Below are positions 9,270-20,606 of a stretch of DNA of 45,107 nucleotides, piece after piece; the first letter of the stretch is position 1; every line of letters begins with the position of its first letter. Both the position numbers and the translations under genes were made by a program. Under the pieces are notes generated by a model. That model was not told the DNA's origin, made no database searches, and saw only the letters and a list, made by a program, of their open reading frames with translations. This DNA is from Candidatus Omnitrophota bacterium (GTDB taxonomy: Bacteria; Omnitrophota; Gorgyraeia; Zapsychrales; Fredricksoniimonadaceae), in contig JADFYF010000004.1 of NCBI GenBank assembly GCA_015233165.1, positions 1 to 45,107 of the forward strand, read 5' to 3'.

Positions 9270-11084
9270 TTACGGCTTCATACTTAAAATAATAATATAT
9301 ATCGACGACAAAATAAGAATCATAATGGCCGTGGGAATTCCTCGACGGCTGTAACTGGCAAACGTCAAACCTTCTTGCAGCTTCCCATCCACCCTGGCCG
9401 GATAAAGGTCCTCCACCAAGGTTTGAGAAATCACTCCGGCACTAGCTCCTGAAATACAAGCACAAGCCCCGGCAATGGATCCTATATTGATGGCCCACCA
9501 AATCACATCCGTAAAATCGGCATATCCTGAGCTAATGACAATCGGAACAAAGAACGCCGTCGCTGGTCCCGCATTCATGAAGGCCGTAAAAATGGCGGAT
9601 ATCCACATCAACAGCAGAAAATATCCCACCTGATTGCCCATGGACATCGCGGCTAAGATATCCGAAACAATCTTGATAAGCCCCGAGTAAAGACATCCCC
9701 CGACGATAATAAACAAAGCTACAAAGAATAAGATGTCCGTAAAACTAATCTTCTTGATGACATCCTTGGCTTTTGAATTTTCAAGAGCCAGAAGAATAAA
9801 ACCACCCCCCATCGCAATGGGCGCTAAATGCACCTTAAAAAAAGGCAGGACGAGAAAGGCCACAATGACAGAACCCAGGACGAAGAGCACTCTCTTGATG
9901 GCAGGCCAGTCCATTTTAATGCTATGGATATCTTCTTCAATCTTTTGAAGAAATATTTTCTCATTCGTCGGGGATTTAACTTTTTGAAAATGGCGGAATT
10001 CGAAGTACCACATATACCAAAGGAAAACGACCAAACAAATGGTGCAAATGGGTCCCATGTAGAGAATGAAATCAATAAAACTAAGACCAGCACTGGTCGC
10101 CATCAGCATATTTGAGAAATCCCCAATCGGGGTGATATTTCCGCCGATAGCCGACGAAATGACTTCGGAAATAACAACAGGAATAGGATCAAAATGAAGT
10201 CCCCTGGCCACATAAATGGTAATAGGAACAACGATCAAGATAATTGAAATATTATTCATAAAGGCGGACGTAATCGCTGTTAACACGCACAAGGCAAAAA
10301 TGATCTTAATTTTGTCGCCCTTCATACTTAAAACCATTTTCTTGGCCAGATAGTCAAAGAACTTTAAATCCTCGAGAAAGATGGCAAAAATGCTCATTCC
10401 TACGAGCACAAAGATAGGACTCATATGAATCGCATCAAAGGCCTCGCTTTGGTTATAAAAACCAAAGGCAGAACCAGCAATCAGCATCAGAACAGCACCT
10501 AAGGTCACGCAGACGGTGCGATTGAAGAAATTTAAGAACAGCATGGTAAAGGTAATGACCACAATGATGAGACTTACAAAAACAGGCATCCCACGAGCAT
10601 CAAAAATATCAACGCCAGCCTCAATGGGAATCTTTCCAGAGACAGTCAAATTCTTACCATTACGTGAGATCAGAAAACTGATATTGTCCCCGGGTTGAAT
10701 ATTGGACATCAGATACGCGAAATGATTAGCTGAATCCACATTCTGTTTATTAATCTGAAGAATGACGTCACCACGTCTGATATCAATGAGTCTTCTGGCA
10801 GCCCCGGTTGCTGGACTGTTAACAAGAACTCCTGCCGCATAGGGAAGATTGAAATCCCTGGCAATCGTAGGATTCACACTTAAGACATCAAATGAAAGGG
10901 CGCAGCTACCCCCCGAGGTCTGGACAAGACGATTAGCGCTTTGATGGGGCATATTCTTTGTATCTAAAAACAACGCCGCCATGATGACAATAACGATACC
11001 CGCCAACAAAGCCTCGATAAAAGGAAAATTCTTAGGTTTTCTTTCTTTGGCTTGAAGCGCTAAATTTTTAAGATCTACGGCCAT
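9270..11084 (-). CDS. MamN-like ArsB/NhaD-type ion permease with inserted/fused PDZ domain
   Basis: TM, then PDZ (ARDFNLPYAAGVLVNSPATGAARRLIDIRRGDVILQINKQNV), then about 10 TM permease core with NNISIILIVVP and MNAGPATAFFVPI. Confidence 0.85.
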   Translation of the reverse strand: MAVDLKNLALQAKERKPKNFPFIEALLAGIVIVIMAALFLDTKNMPHQSANRLVQTSGGSCALSFDVLSVNPTIARDFNLPYAAGVLVNSPATGAARRLIDIRRGDVILQINKQNVDSANHFAYLMSNIQPGDNISFLISRNGKNLTVSGKIPIEAGVDIFDARGMPVFVSLIIVVITFTMLFLNFFNRTVCVTLGAVLMLIAGSAFGFYNQSEAFDAIHMSPIFVLVGMSIFAIFLEDLKFFDYLAKKMVLSMKGDKIKIIFALCVLTAITSAFMNNISIILIVVPITIYVARGLHFDPIPVVISEVISSAIGGNITPIGDFSNMLMATSAGLSFIDFILYMGPICTICLVVFLWYMWYFEFRHFQKVKSPTNEKIFLQKIEEDIHSIKMDWPAIKRVLFVLGSVIVAFLVLPFFKVHLAPIAMGGGFILLALENSKAKDVIKKISFTDILFFVALFIIVGGCLYSGLIKIVSDILAAMSMGNQVGYFLLLMWISAIFTAFMNAGPATAFFVPIVISSGYADFTDVIWWAINIGSIAGACACISGASAGVISQTLVEDLYPARVDGKLQEGLTFASYSRRGIPTAIMILILSSIYIIILSMKP

Positions 11085-11101
11085 GTGTTCCTTTTAGTTT
11101 A

Positions 11102-11177
11102 TGTCATCCCCGAATGCTTTTATCGGGGATCCAGTGGTTTGCGCCATCTCTGGATTCCCGCCTTCGCGGGAATGACA
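11102..11177. repeat. Intergenic palindromic repeat family 1, copy B
   Basis: TGTCATCCCCGAATGCTTTTATCGGGGATCCAG...CTGGATTCCCGCCTTCGCGGGAATGACA. Confidence 0.85.
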
Positions 11178-11186
11178 AATTAATTC

Positions 11187-11882
11187 TTAATACGCAACAA
11201 CAATAAATTTACGCACATCATCGTCGACGTCTGCGTAATGAAACATTCGTTCCCTATATCCAAAAACAAACGCATAGAAACACGCAGGAACATGACGAAC
11301 AGCCGCATGAAATTGAGAAGCTGCTTCGTTATAAGCCATACGGCGTTCCGCGATATTGTCTTCCGATTTAATTAACCCTTGCATCAAAACCTGAAAATTC
11401 GCATTTAATTTCAAATCCGGATAGGCTTCTGCTAAAGCGAGAATCTTTCCCATGGCAGAACTCGAAAGACCACTTTTTAATTGATCCAAACTACCCACTC
11501 CCGCTTGCTTAAGAACATTCTCAAGCATATCCATCTTGCCACCGCTACCTGAGCGTTTGTCGACCATATATTGAAATACCGTTCGTTCATGTTGAGCGTA
11601 ATCAATAACCATCTTCGTCAAATTAATAGAAAGATCTTTTCGACGCTGAAGCATGACATCAATCTGATGCTGTTCCATTTCGGTGTAACGAGACAGGTCA
11701 ACAAACTTGTTATAATAATACACACCAGGGAGAATAATGATCAAAGCGCTTGCGGCAAGAATAATGCCTTGCTTGCTTTTCAAATTATTAAAATCAATTT
11801 TCTTCCACCAAGGCATTCTGACGGGAACAAACTCTTCAAAATCCTTAGGAAACATTTTCAAAATTGTATCGCCAATTCCCAT
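11187..11882 (-). CDS. mamQ: Magnetosome protein MamQ (LemA family)
   Basis: LemA-like: YYYNKFVDLSRYTEMEQHQIDVMLQRRKDLSINLTKMV...AEAYPDLKLNANFQVLMQGLIKSEDNIAERRMAYNEAASQFHAAVRHVP. Confidence 0.88.
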   Translation of the reverse strand: MGIGDTILKMFPKDFEEFVPVRMPWWKKIDFNNLKSKQGIILAASALIIILPGVYYYNKFVDLSRYTEMEQHQIDVMLQRRKDLSINLTKMVIDYAQHERTVFQYMVDKRSGSGGKMDMLENVLKQAGVGSLDQLKSGLSSSAMGKILALAEAYPDLKLNANFQVLMQGLIKSEDNIAERRMAYNEAASQFHAAVRHVPACFYAFVFGYRERMFHYADVDDDVRKFIVVAY

Positions 11883-11966
11883 TACTCATTCTCCCTGTCC
11901 GCCGACGAGGCCGACTTGCCGCTATTAAAAAAACTATGACCTTGAGATGCTTCTTTTACTTGTCCT

Positions 11967-12800
11967 TTAGTACCCCCCCCCAATTCCTCCTCGCTGTCTC
12001 TCTAAATCCATCGCTTTTTTGAAACACACAATCGCATCTTTGTGGTCACCAATATTTTCATAAAGAAATCCCAAGGCGTGATAATACACCGGCTCTCTAG
12101 GATCAAGGTCGATGGCTTTCTTATACATTTTCTTAGCCTCCTCAATCTCATCGTTCTTTTCTAAACAGTTGGCACAATGATAATAAAGATCCGCTTCATC
12201 CGGATTAATGGCCAAGGCCTTTTTAAGGTAGATCATGGCATCATCATAACGCTCCAAGGCTAAAAGACATCTCGAGAAAGAAGTCAGGATATCATAATCA
12301 TTAGGTTTAAGTTCATCGGCCCTATAAAAATATTCCGTCGCTTTCTTATGCTGTTCCTGACTAACAAAACAGATGGCCATCATATACAAGGTATCCGCAT
12401 CATTCGCCTCACCATTTTGGGAACACGATTCAAAATGCTGCAAAGCTAATTTGTAATTCCCTTTGGAGAATTCTTTAAGTCCCATATCTTTTTCAAAAAG
12501 CAAATTACTGCTGCCATCATCCACAAAAATATGCTCATACGCATTGGAAAGACTTTTGATAATGCGTTCTGTCGTCGATAATGTGCGATGCGTCACCTTA
12601 CGAAATTTCTGAGAAATATTAGGTAAGGATTTAACCTCCTTGTGCTTGTGTGAATGAGGCTTTTTTGCTTTATGAATCTCAGCCGTTTCTTCCACTTCAG
12701 TCTCTTGAATGGTCTGAACATCGGAATTAATTTCTAATTCTTCTGCTACCTGTACCTTCTTACTCTTCTTCAGTTCGTCCATAGGGTCCTCTTTCTTCAT
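11967..12800 (-). CDS. mamA: Magnetosome protein MamA (TPR protein)
   Basis: Consecutive TPRs (LYMMAICFVSQEQHKKATEYFYRADELKPNDYD...); start moved to MKKEDPMDELKK (12800) or MDELKK (12782) because the upstream part is repeat-derived. Confidence 0.82.
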   Translation of the reverse strand: MKKEDPMDELKKSKKVQVAEELEINSDVQTIQETEVEETAEIHKAKKPHSHKHKEVKSLPNISQKFRKVTHRTLSTTERIIKSLSNAYEHIFVDDGSSNLLFEKDMGLKEFSKGNYKLALQHFESCSQNGEANDADTLYMMAICFVSQEQHKKATEYFYRADELKPNDYDILTSFSRCLLALERYDDAMIYLKKALAINPDEADLYYHCANCLEKNDEIEEAKKMYKKAIDLDPREPVYYHALGFLYENIGDHKDAIVCFKKAMDLERQRGGIGGGY

Positions 12801-12803
12801 GAT

Positions 12804-12886
12804 TCCCTCCCCCACCGTGGGGAGGGCTAGGGAGGGGGGCATCAATCAATGCCCCTCCCCTTACCCCTCCCACAAGGGGAGGGGAA
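12804..12886. repeat. Intergenic GC-rich double-hairpin repeat family 2, copy 1
   Basis: CCCTCCCC/GGGGAGGG arms twice; near-identical to 13858..13944. Confidence 0.85.
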
Positions 12887-12891
12887 TAACT

Positions 12892-13842
12892 TTACGTCGC
12901 TAAATTAACATCCCCCTGAGGCTTATTAAAACCAAACTTCCAACCAGGTTTAGCAGCGGCAACGGGCTGGTTTTCTTTACATGTAAAAGTAATAGTAATT
13001 TCCTTGATTTGATTAAACTTACGCATCAGGGCCGCTCTGACCTCACGGGTAATCGCATGACCTTCCTTGACGCTGCGTTTAGGGTCGATAATAATTTCCA
13101 TATCAATCCAGGCCTGCTGCCCCACGCGTCTGGAATGAACGTAGTTAACTCCCTTAACTTCTCGATATTGAAGGGCGACTCGTTCAATCAGTTCCTTCTT
13201 CTCACCAGGAAGGGATTCATCAATCAAATTCTTTAGGGCACTATAACCTAAGGTGATCGACATTCTTCCTATCATCAACCCGACTAACAAAGCTGCCAAT
13301 GGATCAAGAATAGGAAACCCAAGATTCGCAAAAAGGATTCCAATCGATACAGCAATACTGGCAATCATATCGGACCGGTTTTCATTCGCGTTGGCAATCA
13401 TCGCCGGAGAGTTTAATTTCTTTCCGACGCATAGACCATAAGATGACAAAATATAATTAGCCAAAATAGCGACCACGGCACAGAAAAAGGCGGCGCCATG
13501 GGGTGGATGAATTTCACCGCTTAAAATAACCTTGGACGAATCAATAAGAATCATGATGGAGATGTAACCCAAGAGCGTATAGGCGAACAGAGCTCCTAAG
13601 AATTCCGCTTTACCACGGCCCCAGGGATGCTTGGAATCACTTTTCTGATTCGATAATCCAACCGTGATGATAACCATCAAGGATGTCAAAACGTCCGCCC
13701 CTGAATGGATCCCATCCGCCAAAAGCCCTTTAGAACCTGTCAAAACACCGACGATGATCTGAAAGACCGACAGCATACAGTTCCCAAAGACGACCATGAC
13801 AGGAACGATTTTGCCACACTTAACGCACTTATCTGGGATCAT
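12892..13842 (-). CDS. mamB: Magnetosome CDF transporter MamB
   Basis: CDF transporter; N-terminal CVKC, LLADGIHSGADVLTSLMV matching the MamB-type TM2 site; start moved to MIPDKCVKC. Confidence 0.88.
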   Translation of the reverse strand: MIPDKCVKCGKIVPVMVVFGNCMLSVFQIIVGVLTGSKGLLADGIHSGADVLTSLMVIITVGLSNQKSDSKHPWGRGKAEFLGALFAYTLLGYISIMILIDSSKVILSGEIHPPHGAAFFCAVVAILANYILSSYGLCVGKKLNSPAMIANANENRSDMIASIAVSIGILFANLGFPILDPLAALLVGLMIGRMSITLGYSALKNLIDESLPGEKKELIERVALQYREVKGVNYVHSRRVGQQAWIDMEIIIDPKRSVKEGHAITREVRAALMRKFNQIKEITITFTCKENQPVAAAKPGWKFGFNKPQGDVNLAT

Positions 13843-13857
13843 AGATTTTATCTCTAT

Positions 13858-13944
13858 TTCCCTCCCCCTTGTGGGGAGGGTTAGGGAGGGGGGCATCCAT
13901 CGATGATCCCCCTCCCCTTACCCCTCCCACAAGGGGAGGGGAAT
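13858..13944. repeat. Intergenic GC-rich double-hairpin repeat family 2, copy 2
   Basis: CCTCCCCCTTGTGGGGAGGGTTAGGGAGGGGGGCATC...CCCCTCCCCTTACCCCTCCCACAAGGGGAGGGG. Confidence 0.85.
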
Positions 13945-13949
13945 TTCAA

Positions 13950-14840
13950 TTACTCCATCGGAACAACTTGAAGCGCAATATGCCCGATATATTTATTCAC
14001 ACCCCGCAACAGCGACTTAATTTTCTGATTAATCATCTTAGCCTGAAGAACACTGATGTTGGGATCCAGCTGCAAGACGATGTCGAGAATAATCGCTCTT
14101 CCTGTTTGACGGGCTTTGACATCATTCACATTCTTGACTCCATCGACCTTAAGAATATGTTCTTTAATTTGATCTCTAAATTCTTCATCCATGTTTCGAT
14201 CCATCGATCCTTTAAGCCCCTCGAGAAGAATAACAACGCTGGCATGAATAACGTGCACAGATTCAAAGATAGCGACCGCCGGATCTACCCAGTGCATCCC
14301 CTTACGGGCAGCCAAAACCGCGATGGCAACCAACAAGGACGAAATAACGTCGATCTTGTTGTGTTCCGCGTGAGCTTTTAAGACGGGACTGTTGAGTTCC
14401 GTCGCTCCGCAATGAGAGAATTTATACAAAAGAGCATTGATCAGTGCGCTCAGAAGAGCCACAAAAAATACAACCATGTGGGGAACAACAAAAACCCGTT
14501 TAGCGAGGATGATAAAGGAACTAAAGATAAGAGCGAGCGTACCTATAATCATAAAGCAGCTGATCAAGATCTGGGTAATAAACTCCACCTTCCCATACCC
14601 ATAAGGATAACGGGAATCCGCCGGCTTCTTGGAATATTTAACCCCGATAATAACAGCTATCGATGATGTCGTATCACTTAAATTGCACAGCCCGCTTCCG
14701 ATCAAGGCGCGGGAGCGTCCTAAAAATCCGACGAACAGTTTAAAGCCGGCAAGAAAAAGATTGGCGATCAATCCCCAGGCGATGGTCCTGTTCATGCAGG
14801 ATTCACATTTCTTCAGATTTTTTACTTTTTCGCTGCTCAT
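13950..14840 (-). CDS. mamM: Magnetosome CDF transporter MamM
   Basis: Second CDF paralogue; N-terminal CESC, ALIGSGLCNLSDTTSSIAVIIG; tandem with MamB. Confidence 0.8.
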   Translation of the reverse strand: MSSEKVKNLKKCESCMNRTIAWGLIANLFLAGFKLFVGFLGRSRALIGSGLCNLSDTTSSIAVIIGVKYSKKPADSRYPYGYGKVEFITQILISCFMIIGTLALIFSSFIILAKRVFVVPHMVVFFVALLSALINALLYKFSHCGATELNSPVLKAHAEHNKIDVISSLLVAIAVLAARKGMHWVDPAVAIFESVHVIHASVVILLEGLKGSMDRNMDEEFRDQIKEHILKVDGVKNVNDVKARQTGRAIILDIVLQLDPNISVLQAKMINQKIKSLLRGVNKYIGHIALQVVPME

Positions 14841-15118
14841 CCTTCATCTTCCTCAAATAAGACTTCTTCCTTCTCCGACGCGCTTTCTTCTAATTTCTGC
14901 TTCTTCTTACGCTCTCTATGGATTAGGGTGATCACCCAAAACGCATTCGATGCTCCTAAGACATAAGACGCAAGAATAATGTAAATCAAACCAAAATGAC
15001 GCCCCTTAAACATAGGAATCCAAATAGGAACCGGGTCAATATTTTCAAAGACAAAAAAGACCATCAGGATCAGAAAAAGAAGGAAAAAAATAATTTTGAT
15101 AACTGTTGGTGCTCGCAT
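14837..15118 (-). CDS. LapA-domain small membrane protein, MamL-like
   Basis: Two TM helices, VFFVFENIDPVPIWIPMFKG...LIYIILASYVLGASNAFWVI then basic/acidic tail; ATGA overlap with mamM. Confidence 0.7.
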   Translation of the reverse strand: MRAPTVIKIIFFLLFLILMVFFVFENIDPVPIWIPMFKGRHFGLIYIILASYVLGASNAFWVITLIHRERKKKQKLEESASEKEEVLFEEDEG

Positions 15119-15125
15119 ATCGCCC

Positions 15126-16337
15126 CTAATTCATCATCGCCACGCTTTTTAAAATCACGTGACAGGTATTACACTTGCCGCGGTCTTCGTGCGGCGGAAT
15201 AGCGCCTTTAATGATCGGTGGTGGAGATGGCAAAATATCTCCCGCATCTATCGGAAGCTGACCACCCGTGACCATAATAATGTGACACACCGTACAGGCC
15301 TTACCCCTTGAGCGATGCGGACTGATCGCGCCTGGTTTAATAGGCTGAGCGGATTCATTTTGTGAGAAACCAAGGGCCTTGGTTGATGATATGATATAAT
15401 CCAACAATCGTCCTCGACGATTAACATATATCTTCGCCTGAAGCCTGTTTCTGACTCTTCGGGTCGCTTCCGTAAACGCTTCGATATCCGGCGTGGCATA
15501 CCCATCAACCCCTATCACCATATCCCCCGCCAAGACACCGGATTCCGCGGATTCCAACGATATTTCATCGACGAGAATCCCCTTTGTTTTAGGGTCAATA
15601 TTAAATTCTTTAGCTAGTTCTGGAACCAGGGGGATGACTTCCATTCCCAGCCAATGTCCCTCGACCAGTTCCTTTTGAGCGGCTCCTTGTTCCTTAGGAG
15701 TTGGAAGTTGACTCGCCTGTGGTGCCATATTAACGCTAGGTCCACCCATCCCAACGCCGGTCTCTGCTGTTTCTCCAGGAAGACGGTTACCAAAGGCTAT
15801 TTGTTGAGGACGGCTTCCCATTCTCATATCCAAAGCAATGGGGCTCATATGACCACCCGTCACGGCTGGAGCATGAGTCACGGGGGTATCTGCAATCCCA
15901 GCCCCGAGCATTTTCTTAAAATCATCATGAAGATTCTTTTTATCTTTTAAAGTCAGATACAAAGGCTGTCCATTGCGCATGACATCTAAAAGAGCCCCCT
16001 TATCCAAGGTGATCCCCTTGGTTGCTTTTAAAAATTCAGAAATATTTTTTACCTTCTTATTATTAATAGCCTTTAACAAATCTCCCCCACGCAGTCCAGA
16101 GCTATACGAGGAGTCCTCACACCAATTGACAACAACACCCTTTTCATCCTTAGGGACATTGAATTCCATAGCAATTGTCGGAGTCAGATTACTCACCGTC
16201 ATCCCCGCCCATTCCGCATCACCAGCGCCGATGTGCATAAGCGCGGCAATGCAAAACAACCCCAAAATGGAGAGTACCAAGATAAGAAGGAATTTTTGCC
16301 TATTTCTCTTTTTATAGTCATCCAATTGCTCAAGCAC
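15126..16337 (-). CDS. mamP: Magnetosome protein MamP: two PDZ domains plus two magnetochrome (CXXCH) motifs
   Basis: PDZ cores GLRGGDLLKAINNKKV and GVLAGDMVIGVDGYATP; GAISPHRSRGKACTVCH and GAIPPHEDRGKCNTCH. Confidence 0.88.
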   Translation of the reverse strand: MLEQLDDYKKRNRQKFLLILVLSILGLFCIAALMHIGAGDAEWAGMTVSNLTPTIAMEFNVPKDEKGVVVNWCEDSSYSSGLRGGDLLKAINNKKVKNISEFLKATKGITLDKGALLDVMRNGQPLYLTLKDKKNLHDDFKKMLGAGIADTPVTHAPAVTGGHMSPIALDMRMGSRPQQIAFGNRLPGETAETGVGMGGPSVNMAPQASQLPTPKEQGAAQKELVEGHWLGMEVIPLVPELAKEFNIDPKTKGILVDEISLESAESGVLAGDMVIGVDGYATPDIEAFTEATRRVRNRLQAKIYVNRRGRLLDYIISSTKALGFSQNESAQPIKPGAISPHRSRGKACTVCHIIMVTGGQLPIDAGDILPSPPPIIKGAIPPHEDRGKCNTCHVILKSVAMMN

Positions 16338-16343
16338 AATGGG

Positions 16344-16625
16344 TTACTCCGCTTTTTTTTGGGCCACTTCAGGTTGTTCAACAGGTTCAAGTTCTACACG
16401 TTCCATCGCTGTATTGCATTCTTTACAGACCCATAACTGTCTTTTGGCACCCATCATGTACAATCCCATCAACAAAAGCGGAATTCCTAAAACAGGACCG
16501 ATCCAAAAGAAAATCGCGAAGATACCACCTATGACGAGAAAGCCTCCGAGTTTTCTACTAAAACGAGGCCCTGAATACAGCTGCATCTGACCATTACATA
16601 AATTACAAATCACCGTTTTTGCCAT
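16344..16625 (-). CDS. Small two-TM protein with CxxC pairs at both ends (zinc-ribbon-like)
   Basis: CNLC...two TM helices...CKEC; contiguous with mamP. Confidence 0.7.
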   Translation of the reverse strand: MAKTVICNLCNGQMQLYSGPRFSRKLGGFLVIGGIFAIFFWIGPVLGIPLLLMGLYMMGAKRQLWVCKECNTAMERVELEPVEQPEVAQKKAE

Positions 16626-16638
16626 AAATCACCTTTCC

Positions 16639-16806
16639 TTATTTTTCCTTTTTATCGTCGATACCTATCCCTGTACTACTACCTTTCGTTGCGCATCCAC
16701 ATTTTTCTAATTTTGAACAGTTCTTATTAAGACCTGAGCAGACCATCCCAACAGCAGCTGCTACCCCAAGAACCCCTACTAATCCAAACAAGCAAATCGG
16801 TTCCAT
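16639..16806 (-). CDS. 55-aa single-TM Cys-containing peptide (MEPICLFGLVGVLGVAAAVGMVCSGLNKNCSKLEKCGCATKGSSTGIGIDDKKEK)
   Basis: Open frame below ORF cutoff filling the gap between 16625 and 16821; AGGAGAATC upstream of ATG. Confidence 0.7.
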   Translation of the reverse strand: MEPICLFGLVGVLGVAAAVGMVCSGLNKNCSKLEKCGCATKGSSTGIGIDDKKEK

Positions 16807-16820
16807 ATGATTCTCCTTTT

Positions 16821-18203
16821 TTACCTAACGGCTCTTCTGCCAACACCAACACGCAATGGATTCTGATCCTGAGCCATGTTATTGTTCCACATCATTTGAT
16901 TATTAGCAGCCGCCGCTTGGGCATTCTGAGTTGTTGTCGGTGTATCTATAATCTGATGACAGCTGACGCAGTTCCCTCGAAAGGCATGCGGCATAGTCGC
17001 GGTACTAGAAATAGGCGGCGCATTACTGATAGGCATCTGAGCCGCAATCGGTGAAAATCCTTGCCCATTATTCATATTCGCTTGAGGATATTGAGAGGCT
17101 GGGTATTGACTAGGCGGACTATAACCTTGTGCTCCACCGACGGGAATATATTGTACGGGTGCATAAGGAACATTGGTAACCGCTTGTTGCGCTAAAGCAG
17201 CCTGTTGCTGGGCGATGGCGGCTTGCTGAGCTAATGCCGCTTGTTGATTCATCGCTGCTTGCTGATTCATGGCTGCCTGCTGTTGAGCGGCTGCTTGCTG
17301 GGCCAATGCCGCTTGTTGCTGCGCAACAGCTTGCTGCGCCAATGCCGCCTGTTGCTGCGCAGCGGCCAGCTCCCAGGTAATGTTGCCTTGCTGTTGCTGA
17401 GGCATAACAGCGGCGGCCTGAGTTGGAAGAGGACAAAGGCCTTGTTGTCCATTAAAAGCAATCTGGGTTGTCGGATTCGTTCTTCTTAAAGTATCCGCAT
17501 CAGGTAATCCTAAAGCCACCTGCCCTAAATTCTGAGCAGGCAAGGGACAATAATTTCCACGACCCTGCAACATGGGATAAACTGGTCCCATATACGTCGG
17601 TGCCATACCCCAGGCGGCTCCTTGTGCCTGTGGCGGCATCTGAACAGCCCATCCTGCGGGTTGTGTTTGCACCGGTTGTACTGGAGTTGGATTTGGAATA
17701 GTGTCAGGAGTAGGCGTTGAAGATATCTTGGCTTGACGATAAAGGGTGATCACTTTTTTAGCCTGTCCTGTATAGCCTCCAAAGGTGCGAATACCAAACT
17801 GCATGAGAATGTTATAGCACTGTTGATCAATATTACCGACGATAACAGCCTCTTCTCCCTTACCAGCAATTAAATAAGCAATCTGTGCGTTGGGTTCTAG
17901 ACCACGATAGGGATTCTTGACCGCCTCAACCAGTTTCCCTGACAAAGGATCAACGACTAAGAAATAAACAGCATCCTGTAAGGTAGGAGCTACATTAGCC
18001 CTCAAGCTTGATCCATCAGCAGCAATCACAATTTTTCCGCAGGCTGGATTGCCTTTAGGCGCTTGATTGGCTGGAGAAAAAATGGCATAGAGTCCCGCTA
18101 AAAAGACAAGAACAATGGCACCAAAAATAAAATAGGCATTTAAATCAATATTCTTTAAACGCACGCTGAAATCTTCTGTTGGTCTTGCTTTTTTGATAGC
18201 CAT
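16821..18203 (-). CDS. Chimeric protein: TM anchor, NifX/NifB-like dinitrogenase-cofactor domain, Ala/Gln repeat, single magnetochrome motif
   Basis: CGKIVIAADGSSLRANVAPTLQDAVYFLVVD...QQCYNILMQFGIRTFGGYTGQAKKVITLY; AQQQAAL repeats; MPHAFRGNCVSCH. Confidence 0.85.
   Translation of the reverse strand: MAIKKARPTEDFSVRLKNIDLNAYFIFGAIVLVFLAGLYAIFSPANQAPKGNPACGKIVIAADGSSLRANVAPTLQDAVYFLVVDPLSGKLVEAVKNPYRGLEPNAQIAYLIAGKGEEAVIVGNIDQQCYNILMQFGIRTFGGYTGQAKKVITLYRQAKISSTPTPDTIPNPTPVQPVQTQPAGWAVQMPPQAQGAAWGMAPTYMGPVYPMLQGRGNYCPLPAQNLGQVALGLPDADTLRRTNPTTQIAFNGQQGLCPLPTQAAAVMPQQQQGNITWELAAAQQQAALAQQAVAQQQAALAQQAAAQQQAAMNQQAAMNQQAALAQQAAIAQQQAALAQQAVTNVPYAPVQYIPVGGAQGYSPPSQYPASQYPQANMNNGQGFSPIAAQMPISNAPPISSTATMPHAFRGNCVSCHQIIDTPTTTQNAQAAAANNQMMWNNNMAQDQNPLRVGVGRRAVR
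17179..17371. repeat. Ala/Gln heptad-like coding repeat within the NifX-magnetochrome gene
   Basis: Encodes AAAQQQAALAQQAVAQQQAALAQQAAAQQQAAMNQQAAMNQQAALAQQAAIAQQQAALAQQAV. Confidence 0.85.
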
Positions 18204-18233: not shown

Positions 18234-18869
18234 TTAAAAAGTCCTGGTATTGTTTGCGTTATTCGTCGTGTTATTTCCACTGAAAATTGGACCGTAAGGA
18301 AAGGCTGGTCCAACAATGGGGGAACCCATCTGCCAGCTTCCTTTATTAGGTCCCATCAAAGGGCCGTATTGATACTCAAAGGGAATCGTTAAATAGGTCA
18401 CCTTCTTATCCCGGTAAATCTCGAGGAGGATTCCATCCATATATTTGACATTATTAGCCACATCGACGAAGCTTGTAATACTGTTGACAGGTTTACGGCC
18501 TATAGAAACAATGACATCCCCTGTCTTAACCCCATACTTCTTGGCGATATCCCGTCCTTCATTGAGAACAAACATACCTTTGACTTTTCGTGACAGCTTA
18601 AAATCTTTACGAAGACTACGATTAACAGGGATAACCTCCATACCGATCCAGGTCATGCTGTCGCCTGGTTCAAAGGCCATGGCGCCCGTCGGTTTAGCTT
18701 CCACCTTTTCCGGCCACATTTCTAAAGAAGACATGATCCAGCAAACAGCGATGACTAAAAAAAGAATCATGCCAATTAATAGGATGGGTTCTTTACGCGC
18801 GAAATTTCCTAGTTTCGAGCCGCTATTGTTAGAATGACTTGTATGGTGGGAATGGTTGTGCGTTTTCAT
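18234..18869 (-). CDS. Membrane-anchored PDZ protein with His-rich N-terminus (MamP/MamE-like)
   Basis: MKTHNHSHHTSHSNN..., TM, WIGMEVIPVNRSLRKDF..., KKYGVKTGDVIVSIGRKPVNSITSFVDV. Confidence 0.8.
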   Translation of the reverse strand: MKTHNHSHHTSHSNNSGSKLGNFARKEPILLIGMILFLVIAVCWIMSSLEMWPEKVEAKPTGAMAFEPGDSMTWIGMEVIPVNRSLRKDFKLSRKVKGMFVLNEGRDIAKKYGVKTGDVIVSIGRKPVNSITSFVDVANNVKYMDGILLEIYRDKKVTYLTIPFEYQYGPLMGPNKGSWQMGSPIVGPAFPYGPIFSGNNTTNNANNTRTF

Positions 18870-20242
18870 TACATGAGCCTCACTAAGAGTTCGTTAATTT
18901 GACCATTTCTTAAGATGTGTATATTCACATTGTCCCCCGCGTGAAAATGAGAAACAACAGCTCTCATATCCTCGGCGGAAGAAATACGAACTCCGGCGAT
19001 ACCGGTAATGATATCCCCTCTTTTAATCCCCGCTAAACTAGCCGGCAACTCGTCCATGACACGATTCACTAAAACCCCATCGCCGGGTTGAATATTGAAT
19101 TGCTTGGCGATCACATCATTGATAGGCATCACTTCAAGACCAAAATGGACAGGGGCGGGCGCATCAGGCACGAAATTCGTTGGAGGTAGTGGTTGCATCA
19201 CTAATCCTCTTTGATCTAAAGGTACCGCAAAATTTTTCTTTAAAGCCTGGGATAGGAAATTCTTGCAATCATTAATAGGAATGGCAAAACCTGTACCGCT
19301 AAAAACCCCCGTCGGAGCATAAATGGCTGTATTGATCCCGATCACCTCTCCTTTTAAATTCACTAAAGGACCACCGGAAGATCCATGGTTAATCGGCGCA
19401 TCCGTCTGGAAAAGGTTCTCGTAGCGTACGTTTTCAATCATAATGGACTTGCGGATACCGCTGATAATTCCACTGGTCACCGTCTGTTCAATGCCAAAAG
19501 GGCTTCCCACAGCGACGACATAATCACCAATCTGAGTAAAACTCGAATCCCCTATCCTCACTTCAGGAAACGGACCATCGGCCCTAACCTTTAGGAGAGC
19601 CAAATCCATCGAAGGCTCGCTGGCAATAATATCTGCACGAAGATCTGTGGTCGTACCTCCCCCGTTCCAAATCGTGACAACAACATCTGTCGCATCCCTA
19701 GTCACATGATAATTCGTCAGCACATATCCACGATCATCCACAAAAATACCAGCGCCTACATTCTCAAAACCTTTGTTGTCGACAAATTTATCAATGGTTC
19801 CTTTAAAGGGGGGCACAAATTGGAAATTATCCGGATTCACATTCTGATTAACAGGTGCTTGAGGCAGACGACTGGCATGAATATCGCAAACGGAAGGCAA
19901 AATCATGTTCACAGCATCTTTTAAGTTATTCTGAAACCGGCTGTCTGTAATATTCGCATTCATTGTTCCCGCCACAAGCTGCATACCGCCGTTAGGTGTT
20001 GCCTTGGTAATAGCAGCGGGTTGAAGATTAGGCTGATACGCCGCCTGCGTCACCGCACCGGGGAATCTGGGTTCACTCATCTTCGGTGGAAGAGGTTTAT
20101 TCAAAGATTCGTGCTCTGCCCCCTTGATAATCTCTTCCTTCTTCATGACAATCCAGAAAACAAACATCACCGTGGTCACAACTAATCCAGCGATCCAGGG
20201 TCCTAGAGGTTTTCTGCAAAATCCTTCGTCTGTGTTTTCCAT
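18869..20242 (-). CDS. mamE: Magnetosome serine protease MamE (HtrA/DegP-type, C-terminal PDZ; no CXXCH)
   Basis: NYHV, MDLALLKV, HGSSGGPL catalytic triad motifs; TM anchor; PDZ LAGIKRGDIITGIAGVRISS. Confidence 0.88.
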   Translation of the reverse strand: MENTDEGFCRKPLGPWIAGLVVTTVMFVFWIVMKKEEIIKGAEHESLNKPLPPKMSEPRFPGAVTQAAYQPNLQPAAITKATPNGGMQLVAGTMNANITDSRFQNNLKDAVNMILPSVCDIHASRLPQAPVNQNVNPDNFQFVPPFKGTIDKFVDNKGFENVGAGIFVDDRGYVLTNYHVTRDATDVVVTIWNGGGTTTDLRADIIASEPSMDLALLKVRADGPFPEVRIGDSSFTQIGDYVVAVGSPFGIEQTVTSGIISGIRKSIMIENVRYENLFQTDAPINHGSSGGPLVNLKGEVIGINTAIYAPTGVFSGTGFAIPINDCKNFLSQALKKNFAVPLDQRGLVMQPLPPTNFVPDAPAPVHFGLEVMPINDVIAKQFNIQPGDGVLVNRVMDELPASLAGIKRGDIITGIAGVRISSAEDMRAVVSHFHAGDNVNIHILRNGQINELLVRLM

Positions 20243-20366: not shown

Positions 20367-20606
20367 CTAAAATGTTGATACCGGGTTTGGCTCTGTTGCT
20401 CCATTGGCTCCCTGAACATTAACAGCTGTATTAGCCTCAGGAGGAGCCTGAACCGTGACCGCTCTTTTCATATGCGTTTTATGATGCTTAGAACTGCCAC
20501 CCTCTCGAAATTCCCAAAAAATACCAAGTAAAATAACAATACAGACGACGAAGATGATTAAAAAGCCGGCCCAAGGATCAAGACATTTTTCGCTATTTCC
20601 AATCAT
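20367..20606 (-). CDS. 79-aa single-TM hypothetical protein of the MGC
   Basis: DPWAGFLIIFVVCIVILLGIFWEFREGG; between mamE and mamI. Confidence 0.65.
   Translation of the reverse strand: MIGNSEKCLDPWAGFLIIFVVCIVILLGIFWEFREGGSSKHHKTHMKRAVTVQAPPEANTAVNVQGANGATEPNPVSTF

Follow-up and report, generated by a model that had tools for sequence, protein, structure and literature searches.

We found that a gene in the magnetosome cluster of an Omnitrophota metagenome-assembled genome (MAG) encodes a protein that combines a transmembrane (TM) helix, a NifX-fold domain and a magnetochrome (MCR) domain in one chain, and that this protein, referred to here as NifX-MCR, belongs to a family that is conserved in single copy among the Omnitrophota with magnetochrome and is fixed between mamE plus a TM-PDZ gene and mamP. 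The window, that is, the whole stretch of DNA analyzed, is 45,107 nucleotides long, and its features are compiled in Table 1. NifX-MCR is a real, conserved and biologically sensible protein, and our confidence in its architecture is high. As to its function, the reading that we favor, with somewhat better than even confidence, is that of an FmpB-like magnetosome-membrane protein with another domain order, which would act as a lumen-facing mono-haem partner of MamP and PDZ proteins in electron transfer and iron handling and probably helps to set the iron chemistry during magnetite formation.

The combination of a NifX fold and magnetochrome is, hence, not a peculiarity of two Desulfobacterota; it is found again, in a different order, across Omnitrophota, a deep-branching phylum of which the magnetotactic members are known from metagenomes only. 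This points to repeated use of NifX in magnetosome iron/redox control, for which NifX-MCR offers an expressible test protein.

Table 1. Features of the NifX-MCR gene and its neighbors in the window.
Feature	Position	Strand	Basis or remark
NifX-MCR gene, 460 aa	16821..18203	minus	HMM and family alignment
TM helix, NifX-MCR residues 21-41	18081..18143	minus	predicted; Lys/Arg-rich N-terminus before it
Cys55 in GNPACG, NifX-MCR	18039..18041	minus	invariant in 15/15, also in Planctomycetota relative
NifX-fold domain with N-terminal edge, residues 51-166	17706..18053	minus	HMM, profile, AF2/Foldseek; without cofactor-ligand His
CPLP motif 1, residues 219-222	17538..17549	minus	conserved within otherwise unalignable linker
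QIAF motif, residues 247-250	17454..17465	minus	Q247 and F250 invariant in alignment
CPLP motif 2, residues 257-260	17424..17435	minus	linker
Ala/Gln repeat, residues 277-338	17190..17375	minus	low-confidence AF2 helix; sits where relatives carry Cys4 modules
Magnetochrome domain, residues 396-420: H406 (in PH), C412, C415, H416	16944..17018	minus	PF18509, PDB profile
Conserved C-terminal tail LRVGVGRRAVR	16824..16856	minus	family pattern A-R/H-V/I/M-x-I-G; candidate interaction motif
TM79, 79-aa single-TM protein, ahead of mamE	20367..20606	minus
MamE-type HtrA protease, one PDZ, no magnetochrome	18869..20242	minus
TM-PDZ protein, directly upstream of NifX-MCR	18234..18869	minus	overlaps mamE end by one base
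Small one-TM protein (MEPxS..., 55 aa)	16639..16806	minus	absent from ORF list
CxxC-93, 93-aa membrane protein, CxxC at both ends (CNLC ... CKEC)	16344..16625	minus	in every locus with the shared order
MamP-like protein, two PDZ and two magnetochrome domains	15126..16337	minus
QxAF occurrence in MamP, residues 179-182	15792-15803
Remaining mamAB-like operon: PDZ-MamN, MamQ, MamA, MamB, MamM, 93-aa TM protein	9270..15118	minus

Genomic context and distribution

The NifX-MCR ORF starts with ATG, with AAAGGA located 7 bases upstream, and a promoter and terminator scan at the locus gave a signal no higher than the shuffle level. On the minus strand, two HTH genes are followed by TM79, mamE, TM-PDZ, NifX-MCR, a gene for a small Cys-containing membrane protein, CxxC-93 and mamP, and then by a 93-aa TM protein, mamM, mamB, mamA, mamQ, PDZ-mamN, TauE/MamO-C-term, PDZ and feoB, so that the magnetosome context proposed in the preliminary description was borne out. 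A search for the same architecture retrieved the complete family in 15 of the 17 magnetochrome-bearing Omnitrophota genomes searched, a partial match in one, which is likely to reflect a contig break, and none in one, and the family was absent from two congeners without MCR (G001 and G002). The order of mamE, TM-PDZ, NifX-MCR, CxxC-93 and mamP was identical in 16 loci. The family members, which are 37-48% identical overall to that of the host genome, share a layout consisting of a Lys/Arg-rich N-terminus, the TM helix, GNPACG, the NifX fold, a variable Cys/Gln-rich linker, one MCR (two members have two) and a short conserved tail. Terms for NifX, haem and magnetochrome were absent from the main texts describing Omnitrophota clusters (PMC5955933, PMC7602337), the supplements of which may hold a label, and the family is apparently unnamed so far.

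Among the neighbors, CxxC-93 is 62-76% identical among Omnitrophota clusters and has a 113-aa relative in a planctomycete. Relatives of the MEPxS protein are encoded between NifX-MCR and CxxC-93 in nine loci (L035, L040, L041, L042, L044, L045, L046, L049 and L056), and the present copy looks shortened because most of them are longer, ending near EKEKAIDxLI. The host magnetosome cluster was closest to that of isolate nDJH15bin6 (66% over concatenated proteins), with a poorly supported placement; this affinity, together with the two congeners without magnetochrome, makes gain or loss of the cluster likely.

Membrane anchor and NifX-fold domain

The TM anchor noticed at first sight was recovered by prediction (Table 1). 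Five Lys/Arg residues are present within the first 20 residues, ahead of the TM helix, making an N-in/C-out orientation likely, and the C-terminal part is accordingly predicted to be present in the periplasm or magnetosome lumen. Cys55 was ruled out on sequence as a lipoprotein Cys, being 14 residues beyond the TM helix and without a lipobox.

The NifX-type domain claimed earlier was checked by HMM and structure prediction. The match to PF02579 (Nitro_FeMo-Co) at residues 70-156 had an E-value of 6.7e-5 and a score of 23.5 bits, slightly under the curated cut-off of 26.3 bits. The profile of the domain matched MTH1175 (2.1e-8), TM1290 (2.1e-7), PH0822 and TM1816 in the PDB, the whole set ranging from 2e-8 to 2.5e-4. 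The AF2 model of the domain alone had a pLDDT of 81 and a pTM of 0.77, and its best 13 Foldseek matches were all of the NifX/NafY/ORP type, including NifX bound to NifEN (9ian); in the full-length model, confidence was limited to the TM helix and the NifX domain, with MCR and the linker outside the Ala/Gln repeat unmodeled and MCR not placed. Because the family matches (PF02579 and PF18509 in all 15 aligned members), the PDB profiles and the predicted fold agree, the doubt raised by the score below the Pfam cut-off is removed. That the domains resemble known ones by chance, or that the assembly is at fault, could be argued from both Pfam scores of the host-genome protein, which are just below the curated cut-offs. 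This explanation is refuted by the family and fold evidence, since both domains were matched in 15/15 relatives from separate MAGs, 16 loci have an identical gene order and the Foldseek result is unambiguous; its probability is negligible.

The domain has the same fold as the NifX/NafY/ORP proteins of PF02579. However, these are cytoplasmic cofactor chaperones, of which NifX and NafY have a ligand His, whereas the domain of NifX-MCR is membrane-tethered and lacks it. In NifX, H35 ligates NifB-co (PMC13128457), but a conserved His as its counterpart was sought in the domain of the 15 members and not found: 14 members have no His in the domain, and the remaining one has a single His at an unconserved spot. 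Furthermore, the HFG turn of TM1816 (ISEHFGRA) is replaced by TLxD/E in the family. The absence of the cofactor-ligand His from every member weakens the suggestion of the preliminary description that the domain binds Fe-S or metal cluster precursors, and narrows the role of NifX in magnetosomes. It might nevertheless be argued that an Fe-S or Fe cluster is still bound by the domain, which would pass iron to the growing crystal, as its fold matches NifX in the NifEN complex, NafY and ORP and as Cys55 is invariant at its edge. Against this stand the missing counterpart of H35, the swapped HFG turn and the position of the domain after a positively charged N-terminus and a TM helix, while NifX-type chaperones are cytoplasmic, and we regard such carriage as quite improbable. 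The domain would more likely serve for docking or as a simple iron site, with Cys55 and the invariant E117, E118 and D126, the invariant potential ligands in the family, as candidate ligands.

Magnetochrome domain and predicted haem attachment

The MamP-like magnetochrome motif was confirmed as an MCR domain. The match to PF18509 (MCR) at residues 396-420 had an E-value of 1.1e-6 and a score of 28.5 bits in the protein scan, 1.9 bits under the curated cut-off of 30.4 bits, and the score was 32.7 bits, above the cut-off, in the genome search. The C-terminal 79 residues had MamP (4jj0) as the best PDB match (1.4e-6), and the published magnetochrome pattern psi-X5-9-[P/T/H]H-X5-9-CX2CH-psi is present as I398...PH406-x5-CVSCH-QI. 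The haem-site residues H406, C412, C415 and H416, which agree with this pattern, were invariant in 15/15 members.

The CcsA haem lyase family (PF01578) was found in 17 of the 18 genomes searched, including the host genome, and ResB in 12 of the 18. In five magnetosome clusters (G373, G228, G331, G361 and G015), the CcsA gene is located downstream of mamP at a distance of no more than about 1 kb; that of G015 appears split in two pieces. As the haem-site residues are invariant and CcsA is present, haem could feasibly be attached at the outer face of the membrane, so that the predicted magnetochrome site could carry a covalent c-type haem.

NifX-MCR can be distinguished from the known magnetochrome proteins. 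It has a TM anchor with magnetochrome in common with MamT, but MamT consists of tandem MCRs alone, whereas NifX-MCR has a NifX domain and one MCR; against the MamT model (NCBIfam NF040992, cut-off 200), it scored 22.4 bits, in the MCR region only. Similarly, magnetochrome and a TM anchor are shared with MamP, the gene of which is also a neighbor, but MamP has PDZ and tandem MCRs without a NifX domain, whereas NifX-MCR has one MCR and no PDZ, and its score against the MamP model (NF040965, cut-off 300) was 23.6 bits, again in the MCR region only.

Comparison with FmpB

The combination of NifX and magnetochrome is not new, having been published for MamP* of RS-1 and BW-1, with the order MCR1-MCR2-PDZ-NitroFeMoCo (PMC3971196). 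MamP* was renamed FmpB (DMR_41100) in Desulfovibrio magneticus RS-1, in which its mutants had fewer magnetic particles (PMC4287615); early magnetosomes are enriched in FmpB and the mutants form smaller crystals (PMC12748827). FmpB shares with NifX-MCR the magnetochrome and NifX/NifB-type domains in one chain, a PDZ partner and the cluster location (PMC4287615, PMC3971196), the likeness being one of published domain types. Whereas FmpB has a signal peptide, tandem MCR, PDZ and NifX last (PMC12748827), NifX-MCR is arranged as TM-NifX-linker-MCR, usually with one MCR, and has Cys4 modules in most members; the FmpB architecture of tandem MCR, PDZ and NifX in one chain was not found in it. The novel features of NifX-MCR are, thus, its inverted domain order without a PDZ, its Cys4 modules and its constant place in the operon. 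The domain types of FmpB are split here over the NifX-MCR gene and the adjacent TM-PDZ gene, and this split-versus-fused pattern supports joint action, although it is no proof of homology.

Linker, Cys4 modules and the QxAF motif

The linker (residues 165-395) contains 21% Q, 21% A and seven charged residues and is disordered. The Ala/Gln repeat that had been described as the tether is present in the host genome, with an underlying tandem DNA repeat at 17217-17366, but most relatives carry instead two to three Cys4 modules, F-x-CPxCxW-x(13-16)-CPxC. These modules are absent from the host-genome protein and the G028/G030 pair, which has NYYQQP repeats in their place. As read from the family alignment, the Ala/Gln tether is real but local to the host genome and no family feature. 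On a tree of the concatenated MamE, TM-PDZ, CxxC-93, MamP and NifX-MCR proteins, the loss corresponds to two changes, with the G028/G030 pair nested with full support beside a module-bearing member, so that the modules were lost at least twice in the family. Pfam and PDB matches of the modules point weakly to zinc ribbons, and no match was found for rubredoxin as their identity.

The Q[VAI]A[FY] (QxAF) motif was found in the NifX-MCR linkers in 14 of 17 sequences versus 0.9 in within-linker shuffles, in the MamP linkers in 9 of 17 versus 0.06, in TM79 in 9 of 17 versus 0.10 and in the tandem-MCR protein in 4 of 5 versus 0.16; as the counts within each family are not independent owing to common ancestry, the weight of this evidence lies in the recurrence across unrelated families of anchored magnetosome proteins. 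It was less frequent in PDZ227 and MamE and present in 2 of 12 sequences of the ion-channel protein of the cluster, whereas the other eight proteins, namely MamA, MamB, MamM, MamQ, PDZ-MamN, ApbE, CxxC-93 and TM93, did not contain it. It also occurs at residue 66 of MamE and residue 75 of PDZ227.

These motifs bear on the alternative that NifX-MCR is mainly a scaffold, in which the linker, the QxAF and CPLP motifs and the C-terminal tail gather MamE, MamP and PDZ proteins, with the haem being secondary. The linker motifs are conserved despite the unalignable linker, QxAF is enriched in the linkers of several anchored proteins, and the twofold replacement of Cys4 modules by repeats suggests that spacing may outweigh metal sites; however, the invariance of all four haem-site residues at the low overall identity given above argues against it, and we consider the scaffold alternative unlikely.

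In AMB-1, MamE-dependent proteolysis targets MamE, MamO and MamP (PMC4794232). Our guess is that QxAF is a MamE processing or docking site. A bolder conjecture, to which we attach a low probability, is that NifX-MCR is a modular lumenal redox wire, comprising a NifX dock, Cys4 metal sites and a mono-haem, and that QxAF, which its linker has in common with MamP, MamE and small TM proteins, serves specifically in magnetosomes as an address or a processing site that MamE or its PDZ partners recognize. If QxAF were a MamE or sorting signal, it would represent a code for lumenal magnetosome proteins, none of which has been described to our knowledge.

Proposed function and rearranged relatives

In the favored role as an electron-transfer and iron-handling partner, the portion after the TM helix would be exposed to the periplasm or magnetosome lumen, where a CcsA-type lyase would attach the c-type haem. 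The mono-haem could then transfer electrons between incoming iron, as well as the MamP haems, and a partner, and thereby set the Fe(II)/Fe(III) ratio at magnetite nucleation, while the long linker would let the haem reach partners and the neighboring PDZ domains would be the likely docking sites. Thus, of the iron delivery or redox role put forward initially, iron/redox handling stands as plausible, backed by the FmpB mutants, but cluster-precursor binding is unsupported. It counts against a mono-haem role that one haem on its own, exposed to solvent, would be an uncommon arrangement, as MCRs are usually tandem.

The arrangements in other clusters bear on this role in both directions. In a Planctomycetota relative, mamE is followed by TM-NifX-Cys4 without MCR and then by the start of an ORF that reads like mamP, and another planctomycete has a TM-Cys4-Cys4-MCR protein without NifX in a mamE-containing cluster. 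These cases indicate that neither domain is indispensable everywhere and count against the redox/iron-handling reading. In its favor, a stand-alone TM-NifX protein of 155-191 aa recurs in a second magnetosome-like cluster (G013 and G027), flanked by a Fer4_5 membrane protein on one side and a TM-PDZ protein on the other. The planctomycete and second-cluster arrangements together suggest that the NifX, Cys4 and MCR modules have been shuffled.

In planctomycete clusters, a PDZ-PDZ protein (L087:8390-9331) has its own Cys4 modules at the C-terminal end and MamP (L086:437-1462) has its own at the N-terminal end. The second magnetosome-like cluster, present in some Omnitrophota and a planctomycete (L089, L090, L041 at 17-20 kb, and L088), contains distant copies of MamE, MamB and MamM along with the Fer4_5 membrane protein, TM-NifX, TM-PDZ or a tandem-MCR protein, and some of its loci show repeated QQVAFxNPNCATCPS units.
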